Of a stretch of DNA of 49,547 nt, positions 1 to 24,489 are shown in pieces; position 1 is the first letter of the stretch; each line of letters opens with the position of its first letter. The position numbers and the translations under genes are program-made. The DNA comes from Rhodobacter calidifons (GTDB lineage: Bacteria; Pseudomonadota; Alphaproteobacteria; Rhodobacterales; Rhodobacteraceae). Where the stretch lies: the NCBI RefSeq assembly GCF_011174775.1, contig NZ_JAANHS010000018.1:1-49547 (forward strand), written 5' to 3'. The notes beneath the pieces are model-generated. The model did no database searches, was not told the origin of the DNA, and saw only the letters and a list, made by a program, of their open reading frames with translations.

Positions 1-744
1 CCATGGATCGACGTGATGCGCCCCTCGGGTCGGGACTTCCCCCTGCAGCCGCATTTCGGAGTGAACCGCATCGCGACCTGGTCGCCCTCGGTCACGACGA
101 CAATCACCACCGAAGGTCTGCCCATCACTTCGGTCGGCACAGTCTCGCATCCCACCCTTGCTTCGACCAACCTCGCGGCATCGATGCGCCGCTGGCGGCT
201 GACCTCGGCGGCAGTCGCGGACTCGGTGGCCGACCAGCGCTCCGCAGGCTGGGCCTGCTGGCGCGGTAATGCGGCAGGCTTGGGCGGGTGGACCTTCGTG
301 ACGCGAGTTTCGCTGACAACGCTGCAGGCCACCGGCATGGGCTTCTTCGGCCTCTACGGATCGACGGCGGCGCTGGCCACCACCCTCACGCTGGCGGCAG
401 CCATCAACTGCATCGGCATCGGCTTCCAGCGCGGCACCCACACCCGTTGGCAACTGGTCGCAAACGATGGGACCGGCGCACCGACCCTGACCGACATGGG
501 GGCGAGCTTTGCCATCGCGACGGGCGGCGTGCTGACCCTGTTCATCGCCGCGCCGCCGAACAGCAGTTCCGTCTGGGTGCGGGTGGTCGACGAGGTATCC
601 AGCGCGATCTTCGAGCAGGAGATCACCGCCGACCTTCCCGCCGCAACCCAATTCCTGTCGCCCCGGCTCTTCCTCAACACCGGCGCAACAGCGGCCGCTG
701 TCGCCTACGACTGCGCCGGGGTTTATCTGGAGACGGACTTCTGA
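1..744 (+). CDS. Phage virion/tail-associated protein, 3' part (cut by window start)
   Basis: The frame is open from base 1 and runs to a TGA at 742-744, so the first 247 codons seen are the C-terminal part of a longer protein whose start lies outside the window. The first residues read PWIDVMRPSGRDFPLQPHFG, a segment I associate with structural proteins near the end of Rhodobacteraceae phage tail regions; that is recall, not a search. The rest is rich in Ala, Thr, Ser and hydrophobic residues with no enzyme motif, which fits a beta-rich virion or fibre-type protein. No gene follows on this strand until the integration region, so it appears to be the last gene of a late operon. It could instead belong to a neighbouring prophage. 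Confidence 0.6.
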   Translation, partial: PWIDVMRPSGRDFPLQPHFGVNRIATWSPSVTTTITTEGLPITSVGTVSHPTLASTNLAASMRRWRLTSAAVADSVADQRSAGWACWRGNAAGLGGWTFVTRVSLTTLQATGMGFFGLYGSTAALATTLTLAAAINCIGIGFQRGTHTRWQLVANDGTGAPTLTDMGASFAIATGGVLTLFIAAPPNSSSVWVRVVDEVSSAIFEQEITADLPAATQFLSPRLFLNTGATAAAVAYDCAGVYLETDF

Positions 745-970: not shown

Positions 971-1732
971 TCACGGTTCGATGTCCTCAAAGGCTTCCGT
1001 CCGATGCCAGACAAGGCGGGCGCGGTGTTTGTCGGTGAGCGGGATGGGCGATTGCCAGCGCAGCTCTGCGCGCGCCGTTTCGCTCAGCTTGGGTGAGAAT
1101 TGAGGCAGTCCCTCTTCATCGAAGGTCACCAGCCCTCGGTCGAAGGCGGCGTCCCACAACGCCGAGAGCAACAGACCGTTGTGCACGTCCAGCCGTTCGG
1201 AGTCGGTGGCGCAATCCTTCCAAGGGATGATGTGGCTGGCACGCAGCAGGGCTGGATCGGTGATCCCGGTCAGGGGGCAGCGACCTTGCCAATAGGTCAT
1301 CAACCGATCGCGGAAGATATCCTGGCCAATGCGCTGGATGACCAGCCGCTCGGCCTCGGTGCTCTTGGGCAGGTTGGCCACGGCGGCACGGAATTCCTCC
1401 AGCGGGCCGTCGGGCAGCGTCACGCCCAACTGGTAGACCCGGGGCATCACGGCATAGAGCGCGGTCAGGTTCGGGAAGGCATAGCGCACGAGGCCCGGGC
1501 CCGGCACGTCGGCCTTGGGCAGGTTCAATTCCTCGACGATACCAAGGTGATCGAGGGCCAGAAACCAGGGCCCGTCATGCCCCGCCGCCGCGAACCACAC
1601 GGTGCCCTTCGCGGTTGTCGACCCATAGCGCGCCCAGCCTTCCGCCTCGCCCAGGGCGCGGCGATAGCCGTTCTGCCAGGCGGCCTTCCGGCATTCCTCG
1701 CTGACGACAAAGCTCTGGGGCGACTGGATCAT
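971..1732 (-). CDS. HNH endonuclease, last gene of the DISARM-like operon
   Basis: A 253-aa protein whose C-terminal half is an HNH_2-type nuclease domain. Visible features are C152 in GRCPLTGI, the ASHIIPW motif with H167, then RLDVHNGLLLS with N185 and WDAAFDRGL with D198. In this family the motif forms a beta-beta-alpha-metal fold that cuts DNA; HNH_2 proteins are common in restriction systems. The first 130 residues have no domain I recognise and may bind DNA or partners. Its ATG (1732-1730) overlaps the TGA of the methyltransferase (ATGA), so the two are translationally coupled. It occupies the nuclease slot that the phospholipase-D protein DrmC fills in classical DISARM, so I infer it is the effector or processing nuclease of this operon. 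Confidence 0.82.
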   Translation of the reverse strand: MIQSPQSFVVSEECRKAAWQNGYRRALGEAEGWARYGSTTAKGTVWFAAAGHDGPWFLALDHLGIVEELNLPKADVPGPGLVRYAFPNLTALYAVMPRVYQLGVTLPDGPLEEFRAAVANLPKSTEAERLVIQRIGQDIFRDRLMTYWQGRCPLTGITDPALLRASHIIPWKDCATDSERLDVHNGLLLSALWDAAFDRGLVTFDEEGLPQFSPKLSETARAELRWQSPIPLTDKHRARLVWHRTEAFEDIEP

Positions 1733-4700
1733 CCCATCCCCATGGCCTTGAACTCGCCACTCGCTTCCATCCGGTCCCAGGCGGCGAGGACGAGGCGGCG
1801 GGTGCGGTATTCGCCGTGGTGGCGGATTTCCTTTTCCTTGAGGACGCGGAAGGTTTCCGAGGGGTAGTCGGGGCCCTTCACGTCGGCGGGATCGAGGATA
1901 TAGCGCAGCTCGTCGCGGGTCAGGCCGTAGGCGCGGGCGTAGAAGGCGTCGAGATCGGCGCGGAGGTGGGCGCGTCGGTCCTCGTCCCAGGCGAAGGGCG
2001 GGCCGTCATGACCCAGATCGCGGGCAAAGGGGGCGAGGGTGTGCGAGGTGTAGGTGAGTTCCAGCACCTTCGGGGTGATAAAGGCGAGGCGGAGTTCGGT
2101 GTAGAAGCTCGGCGCAAAAATCGGGAACTGCTTGAGGTAGCCATATGTCAGGTGCAGACCTGCGACACCATTTCGAGCTGTATAGTCCGTCACCAATGCG
2201 TTCAAGTTCGCGTACAGTCCGACGAGCAGTGCGGTAGTGGCGGTAGAGAACATAAGCGGAAGGGTATGGCCGACTGCCACGCGGGGGATGACGGAAAAGA
2301 TCGCGGTCCGCTCGTTCGTTGCTGCCGTTACGTCTTTCCACCCAAGAAGCCATCCCGCCTTTGTCCGCTCGGACAACCTATCTTCAAGATCAGATTTTGT
2401 AACCCAGTAAAATGGTTCGACATCGAAACCTGGATCTGCGTGTTCTTCAGGCGTTGTCTCAGGAAGGACACGATACCCTCGATCATCGCCGCGCGCGCCA
2501 TAACCCGAAAACCGGTGATCGAACTGGTGGATCATCTTCGCCTCGTAAAGCGGCACCAGGCGGTCGGGGCCGCGCGTCCAGTCGGTGCCGTCGCGGGCAA
2601 AGCCCTCGGCGGCCAGCTGAGCGGCGGTGCGGAACAGGGCGCTGTCCGAGGTCATGTTGAACAGACCCTGCCGGAACGCGACGCCCCAGGGGTTGCCCGC
2701 CGCGCCCCGCCCCTCGTCGATCAGCACCGGGGCGTTGCCGTAGATCTTCGCGGTCAGCGCGGCATCGGCGCGGCTGCGGAAGACCGGCGCGGTGCGAGTG
2801 TTGGGGTTGATCGCGGCGATCTGATCGGGCGAAAGGGTGAAGCTGCGCTCGGGTTCGGTCCGTTGCGCGGGATCGGTCAGGAAGAAGGCGAAATGCGCCT
2901 CGGGCTCGTCGCGGCCGAGGGTGAGCAGGGCGAATTTCATGCGGCTGTCCACTGCCGGGAACAGGCCCGCGCGGTTCTCGAAATCCACCAGCCGCGCCAG
3001 CCGCCGCGTCTCGACCAGATGGGCGAAAAAGGGCGCGGTGGTGGCATCGGTGGCGATGCCGGTGGGCACGATGACCCCGGCCCTCTGGCGGGCGAGATCG
3101 GCGAAAAGCTCGGCGAACAGGGCATAGGTGTTCACCTTGCCCCGCGCCGTCAGGTCGAACCGCCCCGATTCCCGGGCGAATTCGTTGGTGGCCTCGAACT
3201 GGCGCTTGTCTCGGACGAAGGCTTGGAAGGTGGTCGGATCACCGGTTTCCAGCGCGGCGATGGCGCGCTTGCGTGCGGCCCCAGCGAGGGCGGCGATCTC
3301 GGGTTTCCAGGTGGCAAAGTATTCCTCTTCGCCAAGCTGCATCACCTCCCACGGCGGGTTGCCGATCACCACGTCGAAGCCGCCGCGGGCCATCACGTCG
3401 GGGAACTCGAGCGGCCAGTGGAAGGCGCGGGCGGCCCGGGCGGCGTCGATGGCGGCGCCGAACAGGGGGCCATAGGGCGGCACGCCGCGCAGCCATTCCC
3501 AGAGCGTGCCCGAGGTCGGCACCATCTCGGCCCCGCGCCGGGGCAGGCCATCGGGGCCGGCGTGCGGGCCGCCCCTGAGCCTGGGCAACAGGAAGGCCGC
3601 GGTGCAGAGGTCGCAGGCGGTTTCAAGTTGCCATGCCGCGGCCCCCTGCGCCGTCAGGGCGCGCAGGCGGGCGGCCTTGGCCTCGATCTGCGCCAGGGTT
3701 TCCTCGGGCATGGCGCGCAGGGCGGCGAAGTCGCGCATCAGGTCGCGCGCGCGGTTGAAGCCGAAGCCGGATTCGACCTTTCCGCGTTCCCTGCGCTCGC
3801 GCTTGTTCTTGTCGGCATAGTGTTTCGCCACGGCCTTGTCGTCGCCGGTCAGCGGCTTGTAGGCGGCATCGGGGATGCCGTCTTGCAGCACCTTCAGGTC
3901 GAACACGCCCAAGAGCGCATCGCCGCAGCGGATCTGCGCGTCGAAGAAGCCGAGGGGAAGGCCGGGGTCCACCGTCTCGATCCAGAGCGCGACCTTGGTC
4001 AGTTCCACCGCCATCGGGTTGCGGTCCACCCCGTGCAGGCAGGACCGCGCGACATCGCGCAGGGCATGGCGGAAATCGGCGAGCGAGGGCGTGCCATCGG
4101 CGCGGATCCGCGCGAGCCGCGTTGCGATGCGGCGCGCAGCGGCCAGCAGGAAGTGGCCCGAGCCGCAGGCGGGGTCGATGACCGACAGTTTCAGCAGGGC
4201 CTTGGCGGGATCGACCGCCTCGGCCTCGGTCCTGTCGAGCACGGGGTCGAGCGCCGTGTCGAGCAGCGCCTGAACCAGGCTGTCGGGCGTGTAGTAGGAG
4301 CCGGTGGTCTTGCGCTGGTTGCCCTTCTGCTCGGCGGCCTCGGAGGCGAAGACCAGCGTCTTGCCGTCGTCGCCCAGCTGCGGCTGCAGTTCGAGGAGGG
4401 ATTCGTAGACGGAGCCCAGCTCCTCGGTCTCCATCGCGCGCCAGTTGACGGGGACCATGCCGGTTTTCTGGTCAAGCCAGGACAGGCGGTAGAGCGCCTC
4501 CATGAAGGCGCGGTTGCGCAGGCGGGCGGTTTCGAGGTGGGGCAGCATGGCGCGCGCGAACAGGCCGCCCAGCGCCGGAAGGGCGAGCCGCTCTTCGCCA
4601 AGGGCCAGCGCACGGAAGACGATCTTGATGCCCTCGTAGCGGTCGTGATGCTTGTCCCACGAGGCGGCGCGGGTGCATTGGGCGCGCAGGGCAGCGAGGC

Positions 4701-5640
4701 TGTAGCCCTCGGCGTAAAGCTTTCGGGCGTCGGGCTTGGCCTGTTCGGGGTGCAGAAGGTTGCGATCCTCGGCCACCATCAGGAAGATGAGCCGGTAGAC
4801 GAGGCGCAGGAGTTCGTTGAACCATTCGGTCAGGTTGATTTCGCCCGATGTCAGCTTGTCGCGCAGGTCGGGGTTTGCCTCGAGGAAGCCGGAGCCGAGG
4901 ACCTTGAGCGCGAGCTGGACCTGGACAGCCAGGCGGTCGCGGGCGACCTCGCCTTCCTTGGACCCGGCATCGCGCCAGCGCTCCAGCGCGCAATCGGTGG
5001 CCGGGCTGCCCGCGACGCCAAAGCGGCTGCGGTGGATCAGCAGCCAGAGGACGGCGAAGGACGCCGCATCCTCGTTGGTAAAGATCTGTGAAAGGTCGGC
5101 CTCGATATAGGCCGGGCGGGTCAGCGAGGCGTTGTCCCGCATCAGGCGGATCAGGGTGCCGTTGGTGACAAGGCCCCACAGGGTATCGTCATGTTCGTTC
5201 AGGTGGTCCTGAAGGGCGAAGGCGGGCGAGCGCGTGCGGTCGGTCGAGAGGGTCGCGCTGCGCCGGTCGAGTTTCTCGTCAGAGGGCGGAACGACCACGA
5301 TCGGCACCCTGCCGCCCGCGATGAAGGACAGAGCACCATCCGCCGGGACGAGGTCGTCAAAGCCGAAAGTTTCCTGCAGGAAGGCCTTTACGAAGCGCCG
5401 CGTTGCATCGGCCGAGGGGTTTGCAATCCTGGCGAAAGTATCGAAATGCGACTGGCCGACGCGGAAGGCGGTCGAGATTTCCTCGCGGATCGTCAGGCCC
5501 TTGCGAATGCGATAGTCGGCCTCGGTCTGCTCGGACGCCTCGCGGCGGTCCACGCTGGCGACCATGGCAGGTGCGATCAGATTGCCCTCGAGGCTGAGAG
5601 ACGGCCAGGCGGACATGTCAACGACGGATTTGCGCGCCAT
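1729..5640 (-). CDS. Large N6-adenine DNA methyltransferase (DrmMI/PglX-like)
   Basis: A 1303-aa Eco57I/PglX-style methyltransferase. The SAM-binding motif I reads DPACGSGHF (about residue 490) and the catalytic motif IV reads GNPPWEV (about 760), the order and spacing of gamma-class adenine methylases. The N-terminal 400 residues resemble the helical or degenerate-nuclease N-domain of such enzymes, but I see no intact PD-(D/E)XK triad. The C-terminal part (about 1040-1200) should hold the target-recognition region. The start lies 2 nt after the SNF2 stop. In class 1 DISARM, DrmMI methylates host DNA to mark self; the same role is inferred here. Bases about 2140-2520 are clearly less GC-rich (near 50-60%) than the rest of the gene (near 75% in places), which suggests a recombined patch in the recognition region. 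Confidence 0.88.
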   Translation of the reverse strand: MARKSVVDMSAWPSLSLEGNLIAPAMVASVDRREASEQTEADYRIRKGLTIREEISTAFRVGQSHFDTFARIANPSADATRRFVKAFLQETFGFDDLVPADGALSFIAGGRVPIVVVPPSDEKLDRRSATLSTDRTRSPAFALQDHLNEHDDTLWGLVTNGTLIRLMRDNASLTRPAYIEADLSQIFTNEDAASFAVLWLLIHRSRFGVAGSPATDCALERWRDAGSKEGEVARDRLAVQVQLALKVLGSGFLEANPDLRDKLTSGEINLTEWFNELLRLVYRLIFLMVAEDRNLLHPEQAKPDARKLYAEGYSLAALRAQCTRAASWDKHHDRYEGIKIVFRALALGEERLALPALGGLFARAMLPHLETARLRNRAFMEALYRLSWLDQKTGMVPVNWRAMETEELGSVYESLLELQPQLGDDGKTLVFASEAAEQKGNQRKTTGSYYTPDSLVQALLDTALDPVLDRTEAEAVDPAKALLKLSVIDPACGSGHFLLAAARRIATRLARIRADGTPSLADFRHALRDVARSCLHGVDRNPMAVELTKVALWIETVDPGLPLGFFDAQIRCGDALLGVFDLKVLQDGIPDAAYKPLTGDDKAVAKHYADKNKRERRERGKVESGFGFNRARDLMRDFAALRAMPEETLAQIEAKAARLRALTAQGAAAWQLETACDLCTAAFLLPRLRGGPHAGPDGLPRRGAEMVPTSGTLWEWLRGVPPYGPLFGAAIDAARAARAFHWPLEFPDVMARGGFDVVIGNPPWEVMQLGEEEYFATWKPEIAALAGAARKRAIAALETGDPTTFQAFVRDKRQFEATNEFARESGRFDLTARGKVNTYALFAELFADLARQRAGVIVPTGIATDATTAPFFAHLVETRRLARLVDFENRAGLFPAVDSRMKFALLTLGRDEPEAHFAFFLTDPAQRTEPERSFTLSPDQIAAINPNTRTAPVFRSRADAALTAKIYGNAPVLIDEGRGAAGNPWGVAFRQGLFNMTSDSALFRTAAQLAAEGFARDGTDWTRGPDRLVPLYEAKMIHQFDHRFSGYGARGDDRGYRVLPETTPEEHADPGFDVEPFYWVTKSDLEDRLSERTKAGWLLGWKDVTAATNERTAIFSVIPRVAVGHTLPLMFSTATTALLVGLYANLNALVTDYTARNGVAGLHLTYGYLKQFPIFAPSFYTELRLAFITPKVLELTYTSHTLAPFARDLGHDGPPFAWDEDRRAHLRADLDAFYARAYGLTRDELRYILDPADVKGPDYPSETFRVLKEKEIRHHGEYRTRRLVLAAWDRMEASGEFKAMGMG

Positions 5641-5642
5641 GA

Positions 5643-8405
5643 TCAGACCTCGCTCGGCATCAGGACGAAAAGACCGATCACATCCGGCGGCAGAACAGCC
5701 TCAACCGTGACGCGGGATGCCGATCCGGCGGCGGCGCGCAGGCGGGCATGATCCTGCATGAGTTCTTCGGCACGGGTTCTGACGAATTCGGCCAGCGGGC
5801 CGTCGAGCAGGGCGGGCAAATCTTCCTTGGCTTTAGCGATGAAGCGGTCGCGGGCTGATGGCGCGAGGTCAGCATCCGCAGGCGTGTTCAGAAGTTCGCG
5901 GGCCGCTTCGCCTGCAGCGACGATCCGGCCACCCTGTATCGCGACAAGGGCGGCCTCCTCGGCCAGGAGCAGGCGCTCCTTCCGTGCATGGACGGTCAGC
6001 TTGAACCGGATCCGAAGGAGCGCCAGCCGGGTCATCTGCTGGACAGCGGAGGTGGGCCAAGCACCAACCCGGCCGATCCCGAGACCGGACAGCGCCTCCG
6101 GATCGAGCGAAGCCTCTACAAGCGCCTCTGCAAGGGTTGCGGTCAGGGGATGCGTCCTGGTGAGCAGCTCGGTTCCCGACGGTGCCGGTTCAGTCATGGC
6201 AAGTCGGACCGAGCCGGTCAGGTTGCGTTGGGCCAGACGTTCTTTAAGGCCCGCCTCCAACGCATGGACATGGGCGATCAGAAGCGTCTTGCGCGGCTCC
6301 AGCGGCACACCGAAACGCGACATTGCCCGTTCGATGAATTGCTTGGCATCCTCTGGAGATCCCAGAAGGGTGCGGACTTTCTCCCATTCCGGGGCAACCT
6401 CCTGTGGCTTCATCGCATTCTGGGCGAAACGCGCGCGGGATTTCTTTTCGTTCTCGGAGGCATCACGCCACCGCGCCTCCATCGCCCGGGTGCCGTCTTC
6501 AAGGCGCAAGTCGAAGGCCAGCTGCTGGGATTTTCCCTGCCGCAACATGACGGCAGCCATCAGGGCGTCCGTGACCGGCCCACGCTCATCCGGCAAAGGA
6601 ACGGTGATCCCAGTCGCCTTGCGGATTTCTTCCGCCTTGCGCAACACGACATCCAGGACGGCCCCGTCGATGGCGCTGTCCGGTGAGAACATCATGATCG
6701 AGCGGACAAGCGCGGCTGGCTGGCCGAAGCGATCAACCCGCCCCTCGCGCTGCTGATGCCGGGTGGGGTTCCAGGAAAGGTCGTAGTGAATGACGGTATC
6801 GAACAACTGCTGAAGGTTGATCCCCTCGGACAAGCAGTCGGTGGCCACCAGGATGCGTTGGACTTCCTTCTCGTCGTCTGAGGCCATTTCGGCTACGCGG
6901 TCACGGCGCTCGTCGGGCGTCAGAACGCCTGTCACAGCCTCGACGACCAGCTTGGGAAATGCCTTCCGCAGGCCATCCCGAACGTGCTCGGCCGTGGCCA
7001 AGAAGCGACAGAACACGACGGGATTTGCGCCCTTCTTGATTAGCGGTGTGAGAGCATCAATGAGGGCCGCAAGCTTCGGATCGGGCTTGTGGATTAACTC
7101 TTCCGCTTGGGAGACCAAAGCCAGAAGGGCCGGATCCGTGTCAAAGCCGGTCCCGGGCTCGATATCCACCGCGTCTTCGTCATCGGAGTCCTCGTCGTAG
7201 ATCTGCGGTTCAAGCCGGTCGCTTTCGTTGGATATCCGGTTGCGGAGCGCACTGAGGGCGGCGGCTGGCGACGAACCGACACAGCGCATCAGGGCGAGCG
7301 TGCCCCAGAAGGCCAGACGCCGTTCCCGAAGCCCGGAGCCCGCGCGCGCGACGACTCCGAAGCAGTAGTCGAGCACTGCGTCCTGGAAATCGAGGTGCGC
7401 CTGCGACAACCGGTAAGGGGACTCGGTGGTTTCATGCTTGGGGAAAGCGCGGTTCTCGTCCCAATCGCCGGAAATAAGATCGATCCTTTGGCGCTGCACG
7501 AAATGTCGCGCCAAACGTTCCCGGTAGCGGGCGTCCTCGAAGTTCATTGTGCCGAAGGACGGGTCGATCAGCGAAAGCAGGCGGCCGAAAGCATCTTCGT
7601 CGCCAGAGTGGGGCGTTGCCGTGAGAAAGATCATCCGGCGCTCCGGATCGCGGGCAAGCCCAGCGAGAAGTTCGAATCGCTGCTGCTTGCCTTTGTGCGT
7701 GCCCACAGAGGCATGGGCTTCGTCCACGATCACGAAGTCAGGGCAAGCACGCGCGAAGCCTTCACGGCGCTTTTCTGCCTTGATGTAGTCGAGGCTGACC
7801 ACGGTGTAGGGGTAAGCATCGAACAGCGTCTGGGCTAGCGGAAGGCCGCGTTCAAGCCGCGCGGCACTGCCTGATGTCACGGCGACCGCGTCGATCCCGA
7901 AGCGATGCTTCAGTTCCCCGACCCACTGCTCGACGAGGTGCGGTGGGCAAAGCACCGAGAAACCATCGACCTCGCCGCGGTCCATCAGTTCACGGAGGAT
8001 GAGGCCCGCCTCGATCGTCTTCCCGATTCCGACATCATCAGCGATCAGAAGACGGGGCACCTGCAGGCGAAGCGCCATCAGCAAGGGCACGAGTTGATAG
8101 GTTCTGGGCTCGAAAGCCAGTTGCGCGGCCGAACGGAAAGGGCCCGCTCCCCGACGAAGGGTGAGCCGCATCGCATCTGCGAGGAGTGCTGCCTTCGCCT
8201 GGACAGTCGGCACCGCATCGGCGGGCAAGTCGAAACGTGCCGGGGCAACCGGCTGGGTTTCAAGCGAAGGGTCGAGGATGACCGTGTCATTCTCGCTGCC
8301 GGAAAGAGGGCGTAGCGCCAGAATACCCTCGCGCGGGGACGGCAATGCCACCCACTCCCGCCCACGGGCGCGCACTAGGTCTCCGGGAGCAAAATTCACG
8401 GTCAT
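5643..8405 (-). CDS. SNF2-family helicase/translocase (DrmD-like)
   Basis: A 920-aa SF2 ATPase of the SNF2/HepA group. Walker A is in IADDVGIGKTIEAG (about 121-134), motif II is DEAH at 228-231, motif III is LTATPHSG, and the C-terminal helicase lobe has the SEGINLQ and QQREGRVDRFGQ motifs V and VI. The IADDVGIGKT form is characteristic of the DrmD-type helicases of class 1 DISARM. The remaining 300 residues are helical and charged, with no recognised domain. It sits between the DUF1998 helicase (4-nt gap) and the methyltransferase (2-nt gap). The probable job is ATP-driven translocation on invading dsDNA as part of a defence complex. The biochemical role is inferred from family and context. 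Confidence 0.87.
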   Translation of the reverse strand: MTVNFAPGDLVRARGREWVALPSPREGILALRPLSGSENDTVILDPSLETQPVAPARFDLPADAVPTVQAKAALLADAMRLTLRRGAGPFRSAAQLAFEPRTYQLVPLLMALRLQVPRLLIADDVGIGKTIEAGLILRELMDRGEVDGFSVLCPPHLVEQWVGELKHRFGIDAVAVTSGSAARLERGLPLAQTLFDAYPYTVVSLDYIKAEKRREGFARACPDFVIVDEAHASVGTHKGKQQRFELLAGLARDPERRMIFLTATPHSGDEDAFGRLLSLIDPSFGTMNFEDARYRERLARHFVQRQRIDLISGDWDENRAFPKHETTESPYRLSQAHLDFQDAVLDYCFGVVARAGSGLRERRLAFWGTLALMRCVGSSPAAALSALRNRISNESDRLEPQIYDEDSDDEDAVDIEPGTGFDTDPALLALVSQAEELIHKPDPKLAALIDALTPLIKKGANPVVFCRFLATAEHVRDGLRKAFPKLVVEAVTGVLTPDERRDRVAEMASDDEKEVQRILVATDCLSEGINLQQLFDTVIHYDLSWNPTRHQQREGRVDRFGQPAALVRSIMMFSPDSAIDGAVLDVVLRKAEEIRKATGITVPLPDERGPVTDALMAAVMLRQGKSQQLAFDLRLEDGTRAMEARWRDASENEKKSRARFAQNAMKPQEVAPEWEKVRTLLGSPEDAKQFIERAMSRFGVPLEPRKTLLIAHVHALEAGLKERLAQRNLTGSVRLAMTEPAPSGTELLTRTHPLTATLAEALVEASLDPEALSGLGIGRVGAWPTSAVQQMTRLALLRIRFKLTVHARKERLLLAEEAALVAIQGGRIVAAGEAARELLNTPADADLAPSARDRFIAKAKEDLPALLDGPLAEFVRTRAEELMQDHARLRAAAGSASRVTVEAVLPPDVIGLFVLMPSEV

Positions 8406-8409
8406 CAGA

Positions 8410-11400
8410 TCAATCCTTGAACATCGAAATCAACGCGTCGGGCAGTCCGTCCGCGCAAGTCTCGGGCAATTCGAAAAGGGTCCAGCCCTTGGCGTCAGCG
8501 ATCTCTCGCGAAGCTTCGGACAGGGCGCTGGTGCAGGCAGCAACAAAATGGGTGCGCCAGGCAAACCGCAACTCCTGGTCGGCAAAGCTGACGGAAGCGC
8601 CATCCGGGGCCGGGATGCCCGCATCCTTGAAGGCTGCGGCCCATCCGTCGACATCGGCATGGCGTGACGAACCGGTAGCCAGAACGATCTCACCCCGAGC
8701 CAGATCGATCAGCATCTGCTTTGCCTCGGCGCTGGCGCGGTCGATCAGCTCGTGATCTGGCTGGTTGAAGTAGGACAGCAGGCAGCGATAGCAGCCCCGG
8801 ACACAGGCGCCACTTTCCCGATCCACAAGGAGCGACGCATCCCCCGCAGCGATGGCGTCATCGACCTTGTCGAAATGCATAAGGGAAAGAGCCTCCCGTG
8901 CGACCTTGCCCAAGGCGTGGGCGTCTTCAACGAGGCGGTTCAGGACGCCGGCACCACCCTCGGTCGCTTCATAGGCAAGGATTGAACGCCGGTTGTCCCG
9001 GGCGGGCAATGGCTCGCCGAGGATCTCGCCCTCTTCAAGCTGATAGGTGACAGCGATCCCGCGCAAAAGCGCATGTTGCACCGTCGCGATCGTTTCAGGG
9101 GCGTAGGCATCCGGATCAAGTAAGCGGAGCAGCAGCGCGTTCTTGCGATCGCGCACGATCGGCACGATGCGGACCGGTCGCACGACATCGGGCGGCACAT
9201 CGACGTCCGGTTCCTCGTCTTCCGACTTTGCCCAATAGCCACTGCGCGGATCGATGTTGAAACCGAAGACCGTCTGGTTCTTCCGCCGTTTCAGGCCCTT
9301 GTTGATGCGGCTGATCTCGGCACTGTTGGCATACTGCAGGGCGAGGATGGATGTCTCGCCGCAACGGAAATCAGCCTCTGTCACCTGGAGCCGCCCATCC
9401 TTTCGGGGCCAGGAGAACACGGTCTGGATATCGAAGCCCTGTCGAACGCGTTCCTCGTCATTCGCGGTGATCCGGTCCGCAGGTGCAGCCTCGACGTTGT
9501 CAATCCGAAGCGTCCGCTGCACCGGCACTTCGCCCGCCATCGGTGAGTTGCAGGCGTGACATCTTTCGACTTCACCTTCGTGGCAGGCGCCGCAGTTGGA
9601 GCAGATAAAGATGTCCTTGGTGGCCAATTCCGAGCCATCCCCAGTGCGGACCTCGGGCGGCAGCTTGGCCTTCATCACCCTGTAAGCCCGGCCCTCATGG
9701 TAGATCAGGCTGCGCGGTCCGAACTCGGAAATCGCAAGGAACCTTGCGCGTTGCAGGAAGGAACCGGCTTTGCCCTCACCGGGGACGAAGGCGTACAGCG
9801 GCAACCGCGGGAAGTTGTATCCCGGCAGGAAACCTTCGGTCGCAAGGTATCTGTAGGAATAGAAATCGGATCCATTGGTGGCCTTTCCCTGTTCGAGGAT
9901 CGCGATCTGGTCGCTTGCCTGCATTTGGGCGGCCTTGATCTTTCGCCGGTCTGCAGCGGAGAGGCCCGTGATCTCAGAGCGGCTGTTCGCCTCCATCAGC
10001 TGGGTCCGCGCCGAATTATAGAGCTCGCGCCAGCGATCAAACGCACGGTCGAACTCTTGCGGCGCGCGCATCGCGACCTCGAGGATGAAATCGTCCTCGT
10101 CGCCGATCCACGCAGGCTTATTGCCGTCCGTCGATGCAAGTATCTGGTCCAGAATCCGCTTCATCGGCGCGCGCGCTGCCGTTGCGAGGCCTGGCCGGTT
10201 GATGACCTCGATCACCTCTTGTTTCAGCGGGTACTTCGCTTCCTTCAGCTCAAGGATTTCAGGGATATCCGGCGAAAGAGCCAGCTTGGCCTCTGCCAGC
10301 CAAACGGCGTGCAAGTGCGAGCGAACCAGTTCCTCATTGGTGATATCGAGCGCGGGCGGCCGGACAACTCCGGCCACCATTTCGGTGCGCCGCTCGAAGA
10401 AATACTGGTCGTGCGGAGACTGCGCCGCGCAGTAGGTGACGATAACCGCTGCCTGCCCGGATCGACCGGCCCGGCCTGCCCGTTGTGCATAGTTGGCAGG
10501 CGTTGGCGGTACGTTGCGCAGATAGACGGCATTCAGCGCTGAGATGTCGACGCCGAGTTCCATTGTTGGTGAGCAGAAGAGCGCAGGCAGGAACTGATCG
10601 GACTCCCCGGACGCCTTGATTTCGGCTGCGTTCTCCTTGAGCTTCTCGCGATCGTCATCCTCGAAGCGGAACCGCCACTCCCGCCACTCGCGCTGTCTCT
10701 GCGAAACCTGAGCGGTGTGTTCACGACCTTCCAGACCCCAATATGTGCTGCGTCCCCTTTTCAGGTCGGTCGCTATGGCGTTGTAGAGACCGTGAAAATA
10801 CCGGTTACCCTGCGCCCGCCCGGTTCGGACCGCCTGTCCCGGAACAAGACGAACAGCCGAGGGCGACAACCGCCAACCGAGTAGATCGGCCTCGATCTCG
10901 ACAAGTGAGGCCAGACCCTCGCGTGCCATCAGTTCCAGAAGGCCGGTCATCACGGTCAGGTATTCGTCCTTGTTCAGTTTGGTTCCGATCACGCTCTTGC
11001 GGTTGATCGACCTGCCGATCCGGGAGTTGTGCCCTGCGCGGATGATGGTCTGCTCTTCGCGTAGCCCGACCCGATCCTTTCCGGGTGCCTGCAGGAACAA
11101 GGTGGACCGGCTTCGGGGCGTTTCCTTCTGATCGATGGCCCAAGGCGCTCGCAACAGGTTTCGCGATTTTTGTCCGACCGTGTCGAGAACGGTCAGATCA
11201 AGGGCCTCGGTGCTGACGGCCAAACCTTCCAGCATCGCGCCAAGAATTTCCTTGAGCAGCTTCTTGCAGGCTTCCGCGCCCAGATCCCCGAGCGCTGGAT
11301 GCACCGCCATCAGGGCTTCCCGGTCTTGCGCGATGTCGTCGAGTCCGATGAATTCGACGTCGATCAGCTTCAGGACCGACAGGCTGGGATTGGTATAGCG

Positions 11401-13581
11401 CCAGCCCCGCCGCAGATCCGTCCAGACCCGGTGGGCAAGAACCTTGGCAAGGGATCGCTGGGCATCCTCGCGCACCACGGCCCCGGCTTCGGGATCGAGC
11501 ATCCAATGGATGCGCGCGTCCTTGTTCGCTGCCGTGAAGCCGAGCGCTTTCACCACTCGCAGGCCGAACTCATCCTCTGCGATACCGTCCGAGCCCGCAT
11601 CGATCACAGCACGCAAGATGGCGCCGCGCAGCAAGCTCACGAACAGGTAGTCGTTGAAGTGACCTGCCTGAAGGGCTGCGTCCTGGCGGTTGTCCGTGAA
11701 CCCGAGCAGCTTTCGCTTCTCGGCGGGAACGCCGCTGCCATCGCCGTTCATCCATTCAAGGGCGGTCGATACAAGGTGCGTGGTTGCCGAGCTTCGGCCT
11801 TCACCCGATAGGCCCGCAAGTTTGCTGCGCTCCCGCATGCTGGGATGGGTTTGATCGAGGCAGCAGGGACAGAACCCGAACTTGCCCGGGATGAACCAGA
11901 AACTGACGCCGTCCGGGCTGTAACGTCCATCGGGTCGCACGGTGACCTGCTCGGGCAGTCGGCCCTTCCGGTTGGCACGCAGGCGTTCGACACCATTGCG
12001 CTCTTCACGCCAATCCTCGGGGTAGGTCTCCACCTCGCCGGTGAAGGCGTAATCCGGGTCATTCCCGCCAACGGGCGTCAGATAGCCGGCGATATCGCCG
12101 TCTGGGTCTGCGATTGGTGTGTCATCAATGTTTCTGGGCAGGAAGCGAAGCCCGTCGGCATCCTCGGACTTTGTAACGACATGGACTTCGTGCCCGCATT
12201 CCCTGCAGAATCGCGTCGGATAGAGGCGGTGGCCTGGCGCATCGGGGTCTTCCAACTGACCCTCGAACATGACCCGCCGAGGGCGATCGGTCAGCGTCGT
12301 GAAGATTTCTCCGGCGCCTGAAATGAAGCGATGCAGCTTGAATGCAAGGAAGGCGGCTGACCCTTCGCCGCCGCGCTCGGTTTCTGGCAGGCTGACGCGC
12401 GTCAGGAATTGCTCGAACCCAACCCGGCAGGTTTCCTTGTCGAGACCGCTGTCCTGCGAAAGTTGTTCAACAGCATCGTCGAAGGGGACAGGCTTCTTGC
12501 GCTTCAGTTCCTGCCCGTCATCAAGGCCTATCGCCAGCTCGGCCCAGACAGCGAGTGGATGGCGCCGCAGCGCCTCATCTGTGAGGGTTTCCGGCAGGTC
12601 GCTTCCAAGTGCTGTCGCAAGCTGCGGCCGAACATCTTCCAGCTTCAGGCGATCATCCGTCGCGCGTTGGAGGGACTCGTCGATGACGGCATCAGGGCCG
12701 ATCGAGGCACCGAACAGGCGCGAGGCGACGTCAGCCACCGCTTTGGCGCGACCAGCCTCCGATCCTTCGCTCGCCATCGTTGCAGAGGTGCCGATGCAGA
12801 TCGGCGCTTTGGTCGGTGCGCAGCGGTTCCGGAGCCGGCGCACGAGGATCGCCACATCGGCGCCCTGGCGCCCGCGATAGGTATGCAGTTCGTCGAGCAC
12901 GATGAACTCGAGCCCGCTGGCGTTGTCGATGACTTTGGTATCAAGGGCGTCCTGCCGTGTCAGGAGCAGTTCGGCCATCATGAAGTTCGTGAGCAAGATA
13001 TCGGGCGGATTGTCAGCGATCCGCTGGCGTTCTTCCTGGCTTTCCTGACCGGTGTAGCGTCGCACCACCGGCTTCAGCTCGTCCGGCAACCCGGATTGGG
13101 TAATGAACTTCTCGATTTCCTTGATCTGGCTGTTTGCCAAGGCGTTCATCGGGTACACGATGATCGCGCGCGTCTTGCGCGGCTGTCCGGCCTTGCGCGA
13201 ACGAACGATGGCATCGACGACAGGGACGAAGAAGCACAGGGATTTCCCTGAGCCTGTGCCCGTCGTCACGACGAAGCTTTGACCCGCTCGCGCCTTGGCG
13301 ATGGCCTGCGCCTGGTGCCGGTGAAACCGGATGGGCGTGGCGCCAATCCGGAAAATCCGGGCCGTTGCCTCGTCCAGATCCCCCGATGCGACAAGGTCAT
13401 CCACCGTGGGGCCTGACAGGAACCTGGGGTTCAGCGAAAGCAGGGCGCCGGGCCAGAAGCGGGCGTCGTCATATTGGCGCTTGACCTCGGCGGCGATGTC
13501 CGGTGCCCGGATGGTGCTGAACGACCGCGAGAAGCGCGCATAGGAGTCGATGAGATTGTGGTCGAATTCAAAAGCTTTCAT
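8410..13581 (-). CDS. Giant DEAD/DEAH helicase with DUF1998 C-terminus (DruE/DrmA-DrmB-like)
   Basis: A 1723-aa protein. A Q-motif-like HRHQAQAI (87-94) is followed by Walker A TTGTGSGKS (106-114), motif II DELH (230-233), GTSATM (motif III), and a second helicase lobe with TMELGVDIS and YAQRAGRAGRSG (about 1030-1043). A four-Cys cluster near 1310-1335 (CSNCGAC...CHAC) is followed by the DUF1998 region with ATEGGAGVLNRL and CVRGCYRCLLSYF (about 1594-1606). This layout matches DruE of Druantia. In DISARM the helicase (DrmA) and DUF1998 (DrmB) functions are on two proteins, so this could be read as a fusion of both. The start follows the WYL gene by 7 nt. The inferred role is sensing and unwinding of foreign DNA. 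Confidence 0.87.
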   Translation of the reverse strand: MKAFEFDHNLIDSYARFSRSFSTIRAPDIAAEVKRQYDDARFWPGALLSLNPRFLSGPTVDDLVASGDLDEATARIFRIGATPIRFHRHQAQAIAKARAGQSFVVTTGTGSGKSLCFFVPVVDAIVRSRKAGQPRKTRAIIVYPMNALANSQIKEIEKFITQSGLPDELKPVVRRYTGQESQEERQRIADNPPDILLTNFMMAELLLTRQDALDTKVIDNASGLEFIVLDELHTYRGRQGADVAILVRRLRNRCAPTKAPICIGTSATMASEGSEAGRAKAVADVASRLFGASIGPDAVIDESLQRATDDRLKLEDVRPQLATALGSDLPETLTDEALRRHPLAVWAELAIGLDDGQELKRKKPVPFDDAVEQLSQDSGLDKETCRVGFEQFLTRVSLPETERGGEGSAAFLAFKLHRFISGAGEIFTTLTDRPRRVMFEGQLEDPDAPGHRLYPTRFCRECGHEVHVVTKSEDADGLRFLPRNIDDTPIADPDGDIAGYLTPVGGNDPDYAFTGEVETYPEDWREERNGVERLRANRKGRLPEQVTVRPDGRYSPDGVSFWFIPGKFGFCPCCLDQTHPSMRERSKLAGLSGEGRSSATTHLVSTALEWMNGDGSGVPAEKRKLLGFTDNRQDAALQAGHFNDYLFVSLLRGAILRAVIDAGSDGIAEDEFGLRVVKALGFTAANKDARIHWMLDPEAGAVVREDAQRSLAKVLAHRVWTDLRRGWRYTNPSLSVLKLIDVEFIGLDDIAQDREALMAVHPALGDLGAEACKKLLKEILGAMLEGLAVSTEALDLTVLDTVGQKSRNLLRAPWAIDQKETPRSRSTLFLQAPGKDRVGLREEQTIIRAGHNSRIGRSINRKSVIGTKLNKDEYLTVMTGLLELMAREGLASLVEIEADLLGWRLSPSAVRLVPGQAVRTGRAQGNRYFHGLYNAIATDLKRGRSTYWGLEGREHTAQVSQRQREWREWRFRFEDDDREKLKENAAEIKASGESDQFLPALFCSPTMELGVDISALNAVYLRNVPPTPANYAQRAGRAGRSGQAAVIVTYCAAQSPHDQYFFERRTEMVAGVVRPPALDITNEELVRSHLHAVWLAEAKLALSPDIPEILELKEAKYPLKQEVIEVINRPGLATAARAPMKRILDQILASTDGNKPAWIGDEDDFILEVAMRAPQEFDRAFDRWRELYNSARTQLMEANSRSEITGLSAADRRKIKAAQMQASDQIAILEQGKATNGSDFYSYRYLATEGFLPGYNFPRLPLYAFVPGEGKAGSFLQRARFLAISEFGPRSLIYHEGRAYRVMKAKLPPEVRTGDGSELATKDIFICSNCGACHEGEVERCHACNSPMAGEVPVQRTLRIDNVEAAPADRITANDEERVRQGFDIQTVFSWPRKDGRLQVTEADFRCGETSILALQYANSAEISRINKGLKRRKNQTVFGFNIDPRSGYWAKSEDEEPDVDVPPDVVRPVRIVPIVRDRKNALLLRLLDPDAYAPETIATVQHALLRGIAVTYQLEEGEILGEPLPARDNRRSILAYEATEGGAGVLNRLVEDAHALGKVAREALSLMHFDKVDDAIAAGDASLLVDRESGACVRGCYRCLLSYFNQPDHELIDRASAEAKQMLIDLARGEIVLATGSSRHADVDGWAAAFKDAGIPAPDGASVSFADQELRFAWRTHFVAACTSALSEASREIADAKGWTLFELPETCADGLPDALISMFKD

Positions 13582-13588
13582 GGAAATC

Positions 13589-14467
13589 CTACTGCTCTAC
13601 TGCTTGACGCTGGCGGCCGAGGACTAGGGCACTGTTCAAAAGCACGATCTGCTGATCCTGCGGCTTCCTGGCGGCCGGATCGGTATCGAGGCCAAGCCGC
13701 CGGAGCGCATAGTAAAGCAACGCGCGTCGAACCCTGATATCGGCCTTGCCACTGATCATGCCGTAGTCGAGCGCGATCACCTCAGCCTGCGTGTCGGAAA
13801 GAGCAGGGTGGGGGCCGATTTCCAGCGTTGCGAAGGTGTGCCAGTCCTGATCGTTGAAGGCCAGAACATCGGACGCTCGCGAGCCGCGGATGTCGATGAT
13901 CCGGGACAGCAGGAAGTCCTTGAACACCTCGTCGCCGAAGCAGAACGCACGGGCGTGCCAGCGGAAGCCGTCGAACGCGATGGCATGCGGCGCGATCCAG
14001 CGCCACCGGGGCTCCGGGTTGGACAGGGATTGGTACTGTACCTCGATCGCCTCGGATCGGCGGATCGCGTCGACCACGGAGCGAAGGGTTGCTGGATCGA
14101 CGCCGCGCGCAGGGGTGGGTGCGGAATCATAGGCAGGTAGTCCTGCGATCCAGCAATCGTCCTGATCGAGGATGCCGTCGGCGACCGACCGCAGTTGCGC
14201 CAGGTATCGACCGGCATCCAGCTTGTCGAAGACCGGCCTGAAGCCCGGCTGGCGCACATAGGTCCGCAGGCTGCGATCGTAGTCCATGTTGTTGGGGGCG
14301 AGGCCGATGTAGCGGCTCAGGTCGGATGACGCCTGGTTCACCGACAGCCCGAACTGCTCCATCACATCGCTGCGGTTCACATGCCCCTCCCAGAACAGAC
14401 GGAACTCGATGAACTCGAGCCTTTGCTCGACCCCCCAACGAAGTTCCGACCTGTCGTTGCTCACCAC
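13589..14467 (-). CDS. WYL-domain transcriptional regulator (BrxR/CapW-like)
   Basis: A 292-aa protein and the first gene of the defence operon. Residues about 10-65 form a winged helix-turn-helix (VNRSDVMEQFGLSVNQASSD), about 125-205 a WYL domain (IEVQYQSLSN, then WIAPHAIAFDGFRWHARAF, where WHA replaces the signature WYL triplet), and the C-terminus a helical domain as in BrxR and CapW. Members of this family repress defence operons and respond to a ligand or DNA signal, and they usually bind inverted repeats in their own promoter. Two adjoining inverted repeats lie 22-55 bp upstream of this start (14489-14522). Likely autorepressor of the whole 13.5-kb operon. Confidence 0.85.
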   Translation of the reverse strand: MVSNDRSELRWGVEQRLEFIEFRLFWEGHVNRSDVMEQFGLSVNQASSDLSRYIGLAPNNMDYDRSLRTYVRQPGFRPVFDKLDAGRYLAQLRSVADGILDQDDCWIAGLPAYDSAPTPARGVDPATLRSVVDAIRRSEAIEVQYQSLSNPEPRWRWIAPHAIAFDGFRWHARAFCFGDEVFKDFLLSRIIDIRGSRASDVLAFNDQDWHTFATLEIGPHPALSDTQAEVIALDYGMISGKADIRVRRALLYYALRRLGLDTDPAARKPQDQQIVLLNSALVLGRQRQAVEQ

Positions 14468-14488
14468 GCTCTCCCGTCATCGGTCGAT

Positions 14489-14522
14489 GCGCATGGAAAT
14501 TATGCGCGCCCAATTTCTGGGC
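14489..14522 (-). promoter_or_regulatory. Candidate operator of the defence operon: two abutting inverted repeats
   Basis: GCGCAT-7 nt-ATGCGC (14489-14507) is directly followed by GCCCA-5 nt-TGGGC (14508-14522). Both lie in the 118-bp gap between the integrase stop and the start of the WYL regulator, at a typical distance for a repressor site overlapping a promoter. Binding by the WYL protein is inferred. The second repeat could also act as a weak rightward terminator, since it is followed by TTTCTT. Confidence 0.45.
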
Positions 14523-14585: not shown

Positions 14586-15740
14586 TTATCCCAAGGATTG
14601 CCGCAGGTTCTGCGCGACCGCGTCGGCAGCCATTCGCACTGGTTCCGCCGCGAGATGGGCGTATCGTGCCGTGGTCTGGACCTGGGTATGGCCGAGGAGC
14701 TTGCCGATCATCGGCAGTCCTTGACCCGACGCCACGGCCGTGGAAGCGAAAGTGTGACGCAGGTCATGGATACGGACGTCCTTGACCCCTGCACGGGCAC
14801 GGGCGCGCTGCCAGAAGGGTTGCAGATCGCTCAGCGGCTTGCCGGGCAGAGTGCCGGTGATCACCCATGGGTTGCCGTCGATGCGCTGGGCGTCCCGCAG
14901 CAGGTCCGCCACTGGCTGACCAACGTGGACGACCTTCGCCCCAGTCTTGGAATCCGGCAGGCGCAGGGCAGGGACGTCGAGATCGACATAGGACCACTTC
15001 AAGGACATGATCTCGTTCAGGCGGCACCCTGTCAGGATCAGGAGGCGCACGGCGAGGATGGCCGAGGGCAGTTCAACCCCTTCCGCCTCCATCTCGCGCA
15101 GCACCTCGCCGATCCGGCGCAGCTCGGCCGCGCTCAGGAACCGTTCGCGCCTTTGCTCGGGGTACTTCCGGATGTGCTTGCGCGGGTTGGTGCCGTCCGG
15201 ACGCAGCCCCCACATCTCTGCGAGGCTGAACATCTTCGAGATCACCTCGAGGCAGCGGTTGGCCTGATAGGGGATGTGGCGCAGGTCGTGGTGGAATTTG
15301 GCGACATCCGCCCGCGTAATCCCCGTGACCGTCAACTGACCGAGAGCGGGCAGGATGAACCGCTGCAGGTTCCGGCGATACTCCTTCCCCGTGCTGGCTT
15401 TCACGCGGATGGCGATGTGTTCCTTGTCGAACCGTTCCGCTAGCTCCTTGATGGTGATCGCCTTGCGCCCGGCGTCGCGCTCGGCCGCAGGGTCTTGCCC
15501 GCTGCGCGCGGCGGCGACGATGGTGATGGCGCGGGTGCGTGCCTGTTCGCAGGTCAGAACCGTGCTGGGCCCAAGGCTGATGCGCCGGGACCGGCGCCCG
15601 GCGCGGTATTGCACGACATAGCCTTTGCGCCCGCTTGGCAGCACCCGCAATCCGAAGCTGGGGATGTCGGTGTCCCAGATGAAGTATTCGGCGGCTTGGG
15701 TTTCTGCGGCATCGACGATGCGCTTTGTGAGTTTGGGCAT
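14586..15740 (-). CDS. int: Tyrosine recombinase / phage integrase
   Basis: A 384-aa site-specific recombinase. The N-terminal part (1-90) is an arm-binding DUF4102-like domain (FGLRVLPSGRKGYVVQYR), about 95-175 is the core-binding SAM-like domain, and the catalytic domain shows R240 (LTGCRLNEI), K265 (DSKTG), HDLRH with H325 and R328, LGHT with H351 and nucleophile Y360. I start it at the ATG at 15740 (MPKLTKRIV), the usual start for the family, rather than 22 codons upstream. It reads toward the defence operon and lies 1.8 kb from a tRNA-fMet 3' fragment, its probable core site. A 13-bp copy of the putative arm site lies just upstream at 15764-15776, suggesting autoregulation. Confidence 0.93.
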   Translation of the reverse strand: MPKLTKRIVDAAETQAAEYFIWDTDIPSFGLRVLPSGRKGYVVQYRAGRRSRRISLGPSTVLTCEQARTRAITIVAAARSGQDPAAERDAGRKAITIKELAERFDKEHIAIRVKASTGKEYRRNLQRFILPALGQLTVTGITRADVAKFHHDLRHIPYQANRCLEVISKMFSLAEMWGLRPDGTNPRKHIRKYPEQRRERFLSAAELRRIGEVLREMEAEGVELPSAILAVRLLILTGCRLNEIMSLKWSYVDLDVPALRLPDSKTGAKVVHVGQPVADLLRDAQRIDGNPWVITGTLPGKPLSDLQPFWQRARARAGVKDVRIHDLRHTFASTAVASGQGLPMIGKLLGHTQVQTTARYAHLAAEPVRMAADAVAQNLRQSLG

Positions 15741-15763
15741 GGGCGGGTCTTCCGGGTTGACTG

Positions 15764-15776
15764 GCTTCCACAGTGC
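15764..15776 (-). repeat. Third copy of the att-flanking repeat, upstream of integrase
   Basis: Read on the minus strand these bases are GCACTGTGGAAGC, identical to 13 bases of the right-hand att repeat (17699-17711). The position 24 bp before the integrase start would suit an integrase-binding site that controls its own gene. An exact 13-mer match to a neighbouring repeat is unlikely by chance, but function is inferred. Confidence 0.5.
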
Positions 15777-15956
15777 GCAACGCAGAGGGCTAGTCAACGA
15801 ACACATTGATATTACGTGGAAAAAGGAAAATCCAAGTAATGCCGCGCAGGGGCTGAATCGCAGTCGTGGGCGAAAACTCTGGCCAGAGCGAATCAGAACG
15901 CAGGTTCCGGTCGCCCTGTCGCGCTGCTAAGGTCCGCGAAAAGAACTGGAATCCCG

Positions 15957-22947: not shown

Positions 22948-23084
22948 TACCCGCAACCGTCTCCACAGCTCTCCTGTCGTCCGTTCACGACCAAGTCGGC
23001 ATGCAGCGACATCGCGATCTCGGCTGCGCCGACGTCCGCACCGAGTCGGCGGCCTTTCTTGCGGCGTTTGATGACGTGGCTCAT
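22947..23084 (-). CDS. Small basic protein (45 aa) linking ImmA and the STAND gene
   Basis: The sequence starts MSHVIKRRKKGRRLG and ends with a Cys-Gly tail (ESCGDGCG). The ImmA stop overlaps an ATG (23087) in a TGATG, with a second ATG at 23084 that is better spaced from GGGAGG; its own TAA overlaps the ATG of the STAND gene in TAATG. These exact overlaps at both ends strongly suggest a translated, coupled gene. There is no family I recognise. A lysine/arginine-rich N-terminus could bind nucleic acid or be a protease-sensitive regulator. The function is unknown. Confidence 0.62.
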   Translation of the reverse strand: MSHVIKRRKKGRRLGADVGAAEIAMSLHADLVVNGRQESCGDGCG

Positions 23085-23086
23085 CA

Positions 23087-24022
23087 TCAGCCTCCCGCTT
23101 TCCCCGCCATGAACCTTTCGAACGTATCCTCTGTTGGCTCTTCCTCGAGTTCGGCTGCTTCCCAACGCGACGGCGCCCGGTCGGGATAGATCAGCAAGGA
23201 GATGGTCATCTCGTTGCTGGGCGAAAACACCATCATCTCATTAACGGATTCGTTCCCTAGCCAAACGCCGGGTTCGTGACGCTCACCATGTCGGCCGGTG
23301 TCTGCATCCACCTCCCGCGCTGCCAGTGAGCGTGCAGGAAGCTCGATCACAGTTTGCCGCGCGGCGTAGAAGATCCCGGATCTGAGCAAGGGCTGGCTCG
23401 ACCAGGCCCAGTCGATGAAACCCTCCTTTCCGACGACGATCATGGCGCGCTTGTCGGTGACGGTCAGCCATTTCAGGATCGCCGCGGTCAGTGAGACGGC
23501 ATAGCGATCGGCCAACTCGGTCATCATATCGATGTCGATGGCGCGTCCCCTGATCTGCGCCCGGAAATCGTCGAGCGGCATCAGGAGATAGGAGGCGAAG
23601 GTGTTCGCCTCCGCCTCGATCCTGTTCCGGGCACCATCCCAATCGGCCATGTTCCGGTTGGTGCATTGGAGCCCGCCGGGATAATCTCGCCGATGCAGGA
23701 GGTAGTGGCCCAGCTCGTGAGCGAGCGTGAAGTTGCGCCGCCCGGCGGACCGGATGGACCCGTTGTAGATGATGCCCCATTCGCCAGAGCCGTTTGGGTG
23801 CGGCATGAGCATGCCCTCGACGCCCTTGGACAGGTTCAGGCCGCCGACCATCGCGATCGGCGCATCCGGAAAGACCTGTCGCGAGAAATCCTGCGCCAAC
23901 GCCGCCACGTCCACCGGAAACCGCGGCAGGCGATGTGCTGCCTGATGGAGCGACAGGATCTGCGTCAGGCGGATTGCCCAACCCTGCGGCGTCGTGGGCA
24001 AGCTCAATCCTTCTTCCCCCAC
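23087..24022 (-). CDS. ImmA/IrrE-family zinc metallopeptidase
   Basis: A 311-aa protein with the zinc site HELGH at 102-106 (FTLAHELGHYLLHR) and the third ligand probably E138 in EAEANTFASYLLMP, the signature of ImmA/IrrE proteases. In ICEBs1 and in Deinococcus such enzymes cut a partner HTH repressor to relieve repression. The gene directly follows the XRE regulator and overlaps its 3' end, so the pair is probably a repressor/anti-repressor switch. The GTG at 24022 has no good ribosome site; a TTG at 24001, following AAGGA, is an alternative start. The C-terminal 150 residues, including a motif-rich ALTAAILKWLTVTD helix, have no assigned role. Confidence 0.88.
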   Translation of the reverse strand: MGEEGLSLPTTPQGWAIRLTQILSLHQAAHRLPRFPVDVAALAQDFSRQVFPDAPIAMVGGLNLSKGVEGMLMPHPNGSGEWGIIYNGSIRSAGRRNFTLAHELGHYLLHRRDYPGGLQCTNRNMADWDGARNRIEAEANTFASYLLMPLDDFRAQIRGRAIDIDMMTELADRYAVSLTAAILKWLTVTDKRAMIVVGKEGFIDWAWSSQPLLRSGIFYAARQTVIELPARSLAAREVDADTGRHGERHEPGVWLGNESVNEMMVFSPSNEMTISLLIYPDRAPSRWEAAELEEEPTEDTFERFMAGKAGG

Positions 24023-24324: not shown

Positions 24325-24358
24325 CGAGTCATCCTTGATTCCTTGGTGCTGGCGGCGT

Positions 24359-24425: not shown

Positions 24426-24489
24426 GCCAGCGTATCGCTGCGCTGATTCCCTCATCCTCCTCCTCCTCCCCGGCACGAAAGGGCCCCCG

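Follow-up and report, generated by a model that had tools for sequence, protein, structure and literature searches.

The closest described relatives of the locus considered here belong to ARMADA, a newly named and widespread class of defence systems that combines a one-piece YprA/DUF1998 helicase with a RapA/BrxHII-like helicase and a PglX-like methylase, and that has been called a 'missing link' between the defence island system associated with restriction-modification (DISARM) and Druantia (Bell et al., bioRxiv, September 2025, PMC12458937). Type I operons are described as generally running in the order YprA, BrxHII-like and PglX-like, with a helicase that ends in a fused, predicted active Vsr nuclease; Type II operons have the RapA-like gene, the methylase and the YprA gene followed by a GajB-like RelE fusion, and integrase-bearing islands have been reported for them (PMC12458937). 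Contig NZ_JAANHS010000018.1 of Rhodobacter calidifons (assembly GCF_011174775.1), of which positions 1 to 49,547 were analysed as a whole (hereafter the window), carries a five-gene operon that is probably an ARMADA Type I-like anti-phage system in a variant form, situated in an integrase-bearing island, in which a separately encoded HNH endonuclease is predicted to cut in place of the helicase-fused Vsr domain. The operon belongs to a large clade that has lost the active site of the fused nuclease and in almost every case retains an HNH gene in its place, and it is most likely a restriction-like ARMADA-I system whose nuclease has moved from cis to trans.

The five genes lie on the reverse strand in the order WYL regulator, DUF1998 helicase, SNF2 helicase, adenine methylase and HNH nuclease (Table 1), with gaps of 7, 4 and 2 nucleotides and then a 4-nucleotide overlap between the methylase and HNH genes. 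Open reading frames (ORFs), gaps, overlap and domain searches all agree with the gene labels, order and tight packing given in an earlier, sequence-only reading of this DNA; the coordinates it proposed (971 to 14,522) are confirmed with one correction, the WYL start being at 14,467, as an in-frame stop lies between 14,522 and that position. Further genomes of this family repeat the core gene order (helicases 68-95% identical), and it recurs far more widely at lower identity, so the arrangement is more than chance. Both the gene set and its order are those described for ARMADA Type I, namely a one-piece YprA-like helicase with a DUF1998/MZB module first, a BrxHII/RapA-like protein second and a PglX-like methylase third. 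The window differs in its decayed fused Vsr-like domain, the added downstream HNH gene and the WYL regulator in front. As the catalytic columns of the domain are lost, its helicase lacks the predicted active C-terminal Vsr nuclease of Type I, and the operon was filed as a variant for this reason rather than as a typical member. The three protein families are also common to ARMADA Type II, but the gene order of that type, with its GajB-RelE fusion, is not that of the window.

In a tree of the helicases collected here, the window is nested within operons that share its gene order and have an intact Vsr-like domain, apart from four outgroup helicases of about 2100 residues. Two of these outgroup helicases (L172 and L175) have SNF2- and methyltransferase-like ORFs upstream, and a third (L171) has a methyltransferase-like ORF. 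The sequence-only reading had taken the operon for a DISARM/Druantia hybrid and a possible evolutionary link between the two. The relation to DISARM (through the SNF2 and methylase partners) and to Druantia (through the one-piece helicase) stands, but the hybrid is not new: for the three core genes the order is already a named type, an outcome that the reading itself had listed as refuting it, and the link proposal is already in print, because the ARMADA paper describes both the arrangement and the 'missing link' reading (PMC12458937).

Profile searches bear on how far each of the older systems is represented. The helicase scores best on the DruE models of PADLOC (3.3e-82), which is its likeness to Druantia, but its partners are a RapA-like motor and a methylase, and no Druantia partner is found among the PADLOC matches listed (at most 25 per protein). 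The SNF2 protein matches DpdE (PDLC02853, 1.1e-186), DrmD (3.2e-75), BrxHI (7.5e-53) and HmaA (1.5e-47) in PADLOC as well as RapA structures (2.9e-24), and the methylase matches the DrmMI model (2.3e-74). A DISARM Class 1 system that has lost DrmB and DrmC, the fallback of the sequence-only reading, could account for the DrmD-like and DrmMI-like partners, which are indeed common to DISARM Class 1 and the window, but the SNF2 protein reaches only 284.6 bits on the NCBIfam DrmD model (cut-off 610), and the five genes include no separate DrmA or DrmB and no DrmC of the phospholipase D family. Furthermore, the annotation tables of plasmid relatives (one record being unannotated) show no DrmB or DrmC inside the operon, although no search aimed at them was made. 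Such a remnant is judged very unlikely, given a one-piece, DruE/ARMADA-like helicase with its own DUF1998 module. Separately, the annotation of one plasmid relative has a phospholipase D-family gene upstream, and on the Nocardioides plasmid pNOCA01 (L076) an ARMADA-like operon with an intact Vsr-like domain lies beside drmA and drmB, followed by AAA and McrC-like genes.

The full-length DpdE match raises the alternative of a fragment of a Dpd (7-deazaguanine) system. Against this, the same protein scores 192.7 bits on the NCBIfam DpdE model, below the cut-off of 500, the operon holds a methylase instead, and DpdA has no match in the whole genome (E <= 0.001). A Dpd identity is rejected on this absence of DpdA and is extremely unlikely; the PDLC02853 hit at 5643-8405 (reverse strand) is better treated as an annotation trap. 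With bacteriophage exclusion (BREX) systems the operon has a PglX-like methylase and a BrxR-family regulator in common, but PglZ, BrxC and a DUF499 ATPase are missing from the PADLOC matches listed for the five proteins (again at most 25 each). The BREX-related systems of PMC12839542 were likewise set aside as an identity, being centred on a DUF499 ATPase.

Decay of the fused domain was followed in a survey of related helicases. Matches at 1e-100 were found in 15 of 292 genomes of the order, 7 of 385 of the class and 14 of 398 of the phylum (overlapping samples, each including the window's own genome); further matches came from 64 plasmid records, of which 14 were fetched, and from 14 viral-contig loci. 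A search of one genome per species contributed the best 80 of 543 matches, and the sample is therefore weighted toward relatives of the window. The window and loci L038-L169 supplied 122 helicases that extend into the C-terminal region, besides 11 truncated ones that were discarded; taking out six near-duplicates left 116 non-redundant sequences. With 'intact' defined by the D and H columns of the C-terminal domain, 45 of the 116 are intact and 71 are not. Three columns outside that definition are conserved in the intact set (E in 44/45, D in 45/45 and D in 45/45) and scattered in the other 71. The window helicase has V, R, S and gaps at the catalytic columns; judged by its residues, the Vsr-like domain has lost its catalytic centre, and modelling suggests that it seems to keep the fold. 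I-Bth0305I and the EDxHD nucleases are relatives of Vsr.

The rate of divergence differs in the same sense. Between the window and two relatives the helicase core is 0.77 identical in both comparisons and the C-terminal domain only 0.34 and 0.35, compared with 0.75 and 0.82 (core) and 0.67 and 0.77 (domain) in an intact clade, and 0.74 and 0.77 (core) and 0.50 and 0.60 (domain) in a clade with both nucleases. These figures come from two comparisons each at matched distance, and closer pairs follow the same trend. Decayed fused domains thus drift faster than intact ones, which points toward replacement of the nuclease.

The candidate replacement is the HNH gene, whose presence was counted twice. 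In the fetched stretches, where several HNH ORFs were cut by the stretch end, an HNH gene lies downstream on the same strand in 49 of the 71 non-intact operons and in 0 of the 45 intact ones. A second search (window HNH protein P0001 as query, 1e-5) covered the whole genomes or records of 22 decayed loci plus two positive controls, L145 and L130, and of 41 of 42 intact loci (L119 being left out), and the sequence between operon and HNH gene was read for 20 loci. The notion that HNH occurs only where Vsr is dead was dropped, as whole records show an HNH gene further downstream in six intact operons. Among the 116 operons including the window, the decayed domain goes with HNH in 62, lacks it in four and is undeterminable in five; the intact domain goes with HNH in six, lacks it in 35 and is undeterminable in four. 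In a FastTree phylogeny built on the core of the helicase, which was taken to end at residue 1588, and with the four long helicases as outgroup, the window falls in a clade of 67 members (support 0.96), all 67 of them decayed, in which 60 of 62 determinable operons carry HNH, two lack it and five are undeterminable. At 14 of 67 loci the automatic ORF calls give the 4-nucleotide overlap of HNH with the methylase stop. Distances between helicases correlate with those between HNH proteins (r 0.81, 44 operons, Mantel p 0.001), beside values of 0.97 for helicase and SNF2 protein and 0.75 for helicase and methylase, as expected of co-inherited genes. One member of the survey, L145 (Myxococcales), has a decayed-domain YprA helicase and an HNH gene on a long branch, with no SNF2 protein or methylase recognised by blastp.

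The sequence-only reading had cast the HNH protein as a stand-in for DrmC, which is probably wrong: 35 of the 39 relatives shown to be without a linked HNH have an intact helicase-fused Vsr-like nuclease. The HNH protein need not replace DrmC, because what decayed here is the fused domain that the HNH-less relatives retain. Replacement of Vsr by HNH is firm as a clade-level pattern. It is not a statistically repeated one, because the changes are few and the independent pairs too few.

Several observations weigh against replacement. The tree implies at least five changes of the fused domain and at least four of HNH, so that the co-occurrence rests on few events, and an independent-pairs test of domain decay against HNH was not significant (3-4 pairs, median p 1). 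The six intact operons with HNH (a Thauera operon among them) form one betaproteobacterial clade in which HNH lies 2.1-10.7 kb past the methylase and 10-19 kb past the helicase with other genes between, so that plain replacement does not describe that clade. Conversely, a linked HNH is absent from four decayed operons. In one, on a Kozakia plasmid without any HNH match (L079), IS21 istA/istB genes lie directly 3' of the methylase, where HNH would be; in another (L133) the HNH match is on another contig only; and two (L159 and L077) belong to lineages outside the HNH clade, with the methylase adjoined by an Mrr_N-AAA protein in L159 and by an EVE protein in L077. Some genomes carry HNH homologues elsewhere than at such operons. 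In many relatives other genes separate methylase and HNH, which may then be a single accessory among several. Moreover, of the two positive controls of the second search L145 was recovered and L130 missed (a 150-residue piece at a contig end, found by profile match only), so some HNH absences may be misses. Finally, the ARMADA systems assayed in PMC12458937 are of Type II, and activity of the window type is predicted from sequence.

These points would fit an HNH protein that is an auxiliary or backup effector, with the decayed domain still contributing in another way and with nuclease loss and HNH being coincident lineage traits. The few independent events and the non-significant test favour this explanation, as do the operons with both nucleases and the auxiliary HNH nucleases reported beside a primary effector in BREX-related systems (PMC12839542). 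Nevertheless, it is unlikely, considering that HNH is kept in 60 of 62 determinable clade operons and that 43 of the 44 HNH proteins examined retain the catalytic residues, the remaining one having a gap, while the fused domain drifts. In BREX-related Type-1 systems nearby nucleases have been proposed to compensate where a fused nuclease is missing (PMC12839542).

A further alternative is that HNH is an enzyme in its own right, a modification-dependent (Type IV) endonuclease that travels with ARMADA and targets the modified phage DNA escaping the methylase-based system, the ARMADA core then restricting without cutting or cutting otherwise. VcaM4I is an EVE-HNH enzyme, and VcaM4I and TagI have the HNH domain fold in common with the window protein. 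The N-terminal domain of the latter weakly resembles T4 MotA. This explanation is also unlikely.

Replacement of the fused Vsr by HNH remains preferred, and could be extended, tentatively, to a history in which HNH-ARMADA is a distinct and widespread subtype: HNH would have joined first, as in the both-nucleases stage of the Betaproteobacteria, Vsr would then have decayed into a dock that recruits and gates HNH, and the swappable methylase block would set the target of the whole complex. No paper describing HNH in ARMADA was found in the literature searched, which did not extend to the supplements of PMC12458937, and a term search of the main text of that paper returned 'HNH' once, in a reference title. 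The arrangement of a decayed Vsr domain with an HNH gene is a variant that this literature did not yield; the hybrid core is already known. If the replacement is true, detection rules for ARMADA will have to include HNH, nuclease action becomes separable and could be tested in trans, and both-nuclease operons offer a natural series for studying effector swapping in defence complexes.

In the proposed mechanism, the PglX-like methylase would use an exchangeable block to read a short DNA motif and would methylate host DNA. Exchange of this block is seen on comparison with L038, a locus from a genome of the same family, whose integrase (96.6%), WYL (90%), helicase (95%), SNF2 (97%) and HNH (90.5%) proteins are nearly identical to those of the window. 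The methylases are 90-98% identical per 100-residue bin over residues 1-600, 25-65% over about 600-1200 and 95% over the hundred residues after that, and at the DNA level only 99 bases of window positions 2106-3834 align, between flanks of 91 and 93%. By sequence comparison a block has been exchanged within the region expected to read the target, as in PglX, whose motif is recognised by a C-terminal domain (PMC11341690). This favours a scheme in which the methylase defines the target and the motors and nuclease would follow. The two near-identical systems thereby make a pair for mapping specificity; in L038, moreover, the methylase and HNH genes are separated by an additional gene of about 370 codons.

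Unmethylated incoming DNA, or DNA structures associated with infection, would then recruit the RapA/BrxHII-like motor and the YprA helicase, which may translocate along or open the DNA. The cut would be made by the separately encoded, translationally coupled HNH protein, to which it is assigned in view of the catalytic residues missing from the fused domain; ancestrally it would have been made by the helicase-fused Vsr, and the decayed domain, with its seemingly kept fold in the model, perhaps serves as a docking surface. A WYL protein of the CapW/BrxR family would keep the operon repressed until infection or damage. Its phmmer matches are CapW structures (4.4e-66 and 3.3e-65) and BrxR (3.5e-42), which establishes the family; the repressor role given to it in the sequence-only reading is extrapolated from homologues. 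CapW, a repressor of the cyclic oligonucleotide-based anti-phage signalling system (CBASS), has a palindrome as its binding site (PMC9122588), and the sites bound by BrxR are inverted repeats (PMC9122601). The WYL gene is an optional component, found on the same strand in 9 of 116 operons by blastp (for 103, 1 kb or more of upstream sequence was present). Like the window, with its candidate dyad (Table 1), several WYL relatives have inverted repeats upstream, near -40, and in six of eight upstream regions, including the L038 region standing for the window, the dyads do not surpass those of shuffled sequence. Upstream of WYL in L041 and L089 there is a dyad, GGGCCCGCATA(G/C)TTTGCGGGTCC, near -43, which is stronger than that of the window; a dyad as strong arises in 6 and 9 of 200 shuffled sequences.

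Table 1. Features of the operon and its flank in the window (all reverse strand)
Feature	Coordinates	Strand	Details
WYL-domain regulator, CapW/BrxR family (P0006)	13589..14467	-	292 aa, GTG start; WYL PF13280 1.4e-10
YprA/DUF1998 SF2 helicase, ARMADA-type, ArmC-like (P0004)	8410..13581	-	1723 aa; DEAD 3.7e-26, MZB/DUF1998 2.5e-08
Decayed Vsr-like (EDxHD) nuclease domain, helicase C-terminus	8413..8664	-	residues 1640-1723
RapA/BrxHII/DrmD-like SNF2 helicase, ArmA-like (P0003)	5643..8405	-	920 aa, IADDVGIGKT; SNF2-rel 5.8e-12
DrmMI/PglX-like N6-adenine methylase, ArmB-like (P0002)	1729..5640	-	1303 aa; DPACGSG and NPPW motifs; Eco57I 1.6e-17
Exchangeable block of methylase, probable target-recognition	2106..3834	-	about residues 603-1179
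HNH endonuclease, predicted to act in trans (P0001)	971..1732	-	253 aa; ATG overlaps methylase stop; HNH_2 1.7e-12; active-site histidine H167
Candidate regulator dyad GCGCATAATTTCCATGCGC	14489..14507	-	22-40 nt 5' of WYL start codon; lead only
Tyrosine integrase	14586..15806	-	Phage_integrase 1.2e-20; probably belongs to the operon-bearing island

The integrase occupies the same place next to WYL in L038 (96.6% identical) and L048 (89.1%). At the near end of the window, 13-744 (forward strand) matches the C-terminal 242 positions of phrog_13925 (3.2e-141), and 31872-34403 (forward strand) matches a phage primase family (6.4e-85). With phage-type genes on both sides, the island may lie in or beside a prophage. 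Further along, a 1712-residue STAND-like NTPase (17818-22956, reverse strand) weakly matches the PADLOC candidate PDC-M54A (8e-14) and is followed by an M78/IrrE-type peptidase (23087-24022) and a helix-turn-helix protein (24004-25761); together these three genes are a possible second defence module.

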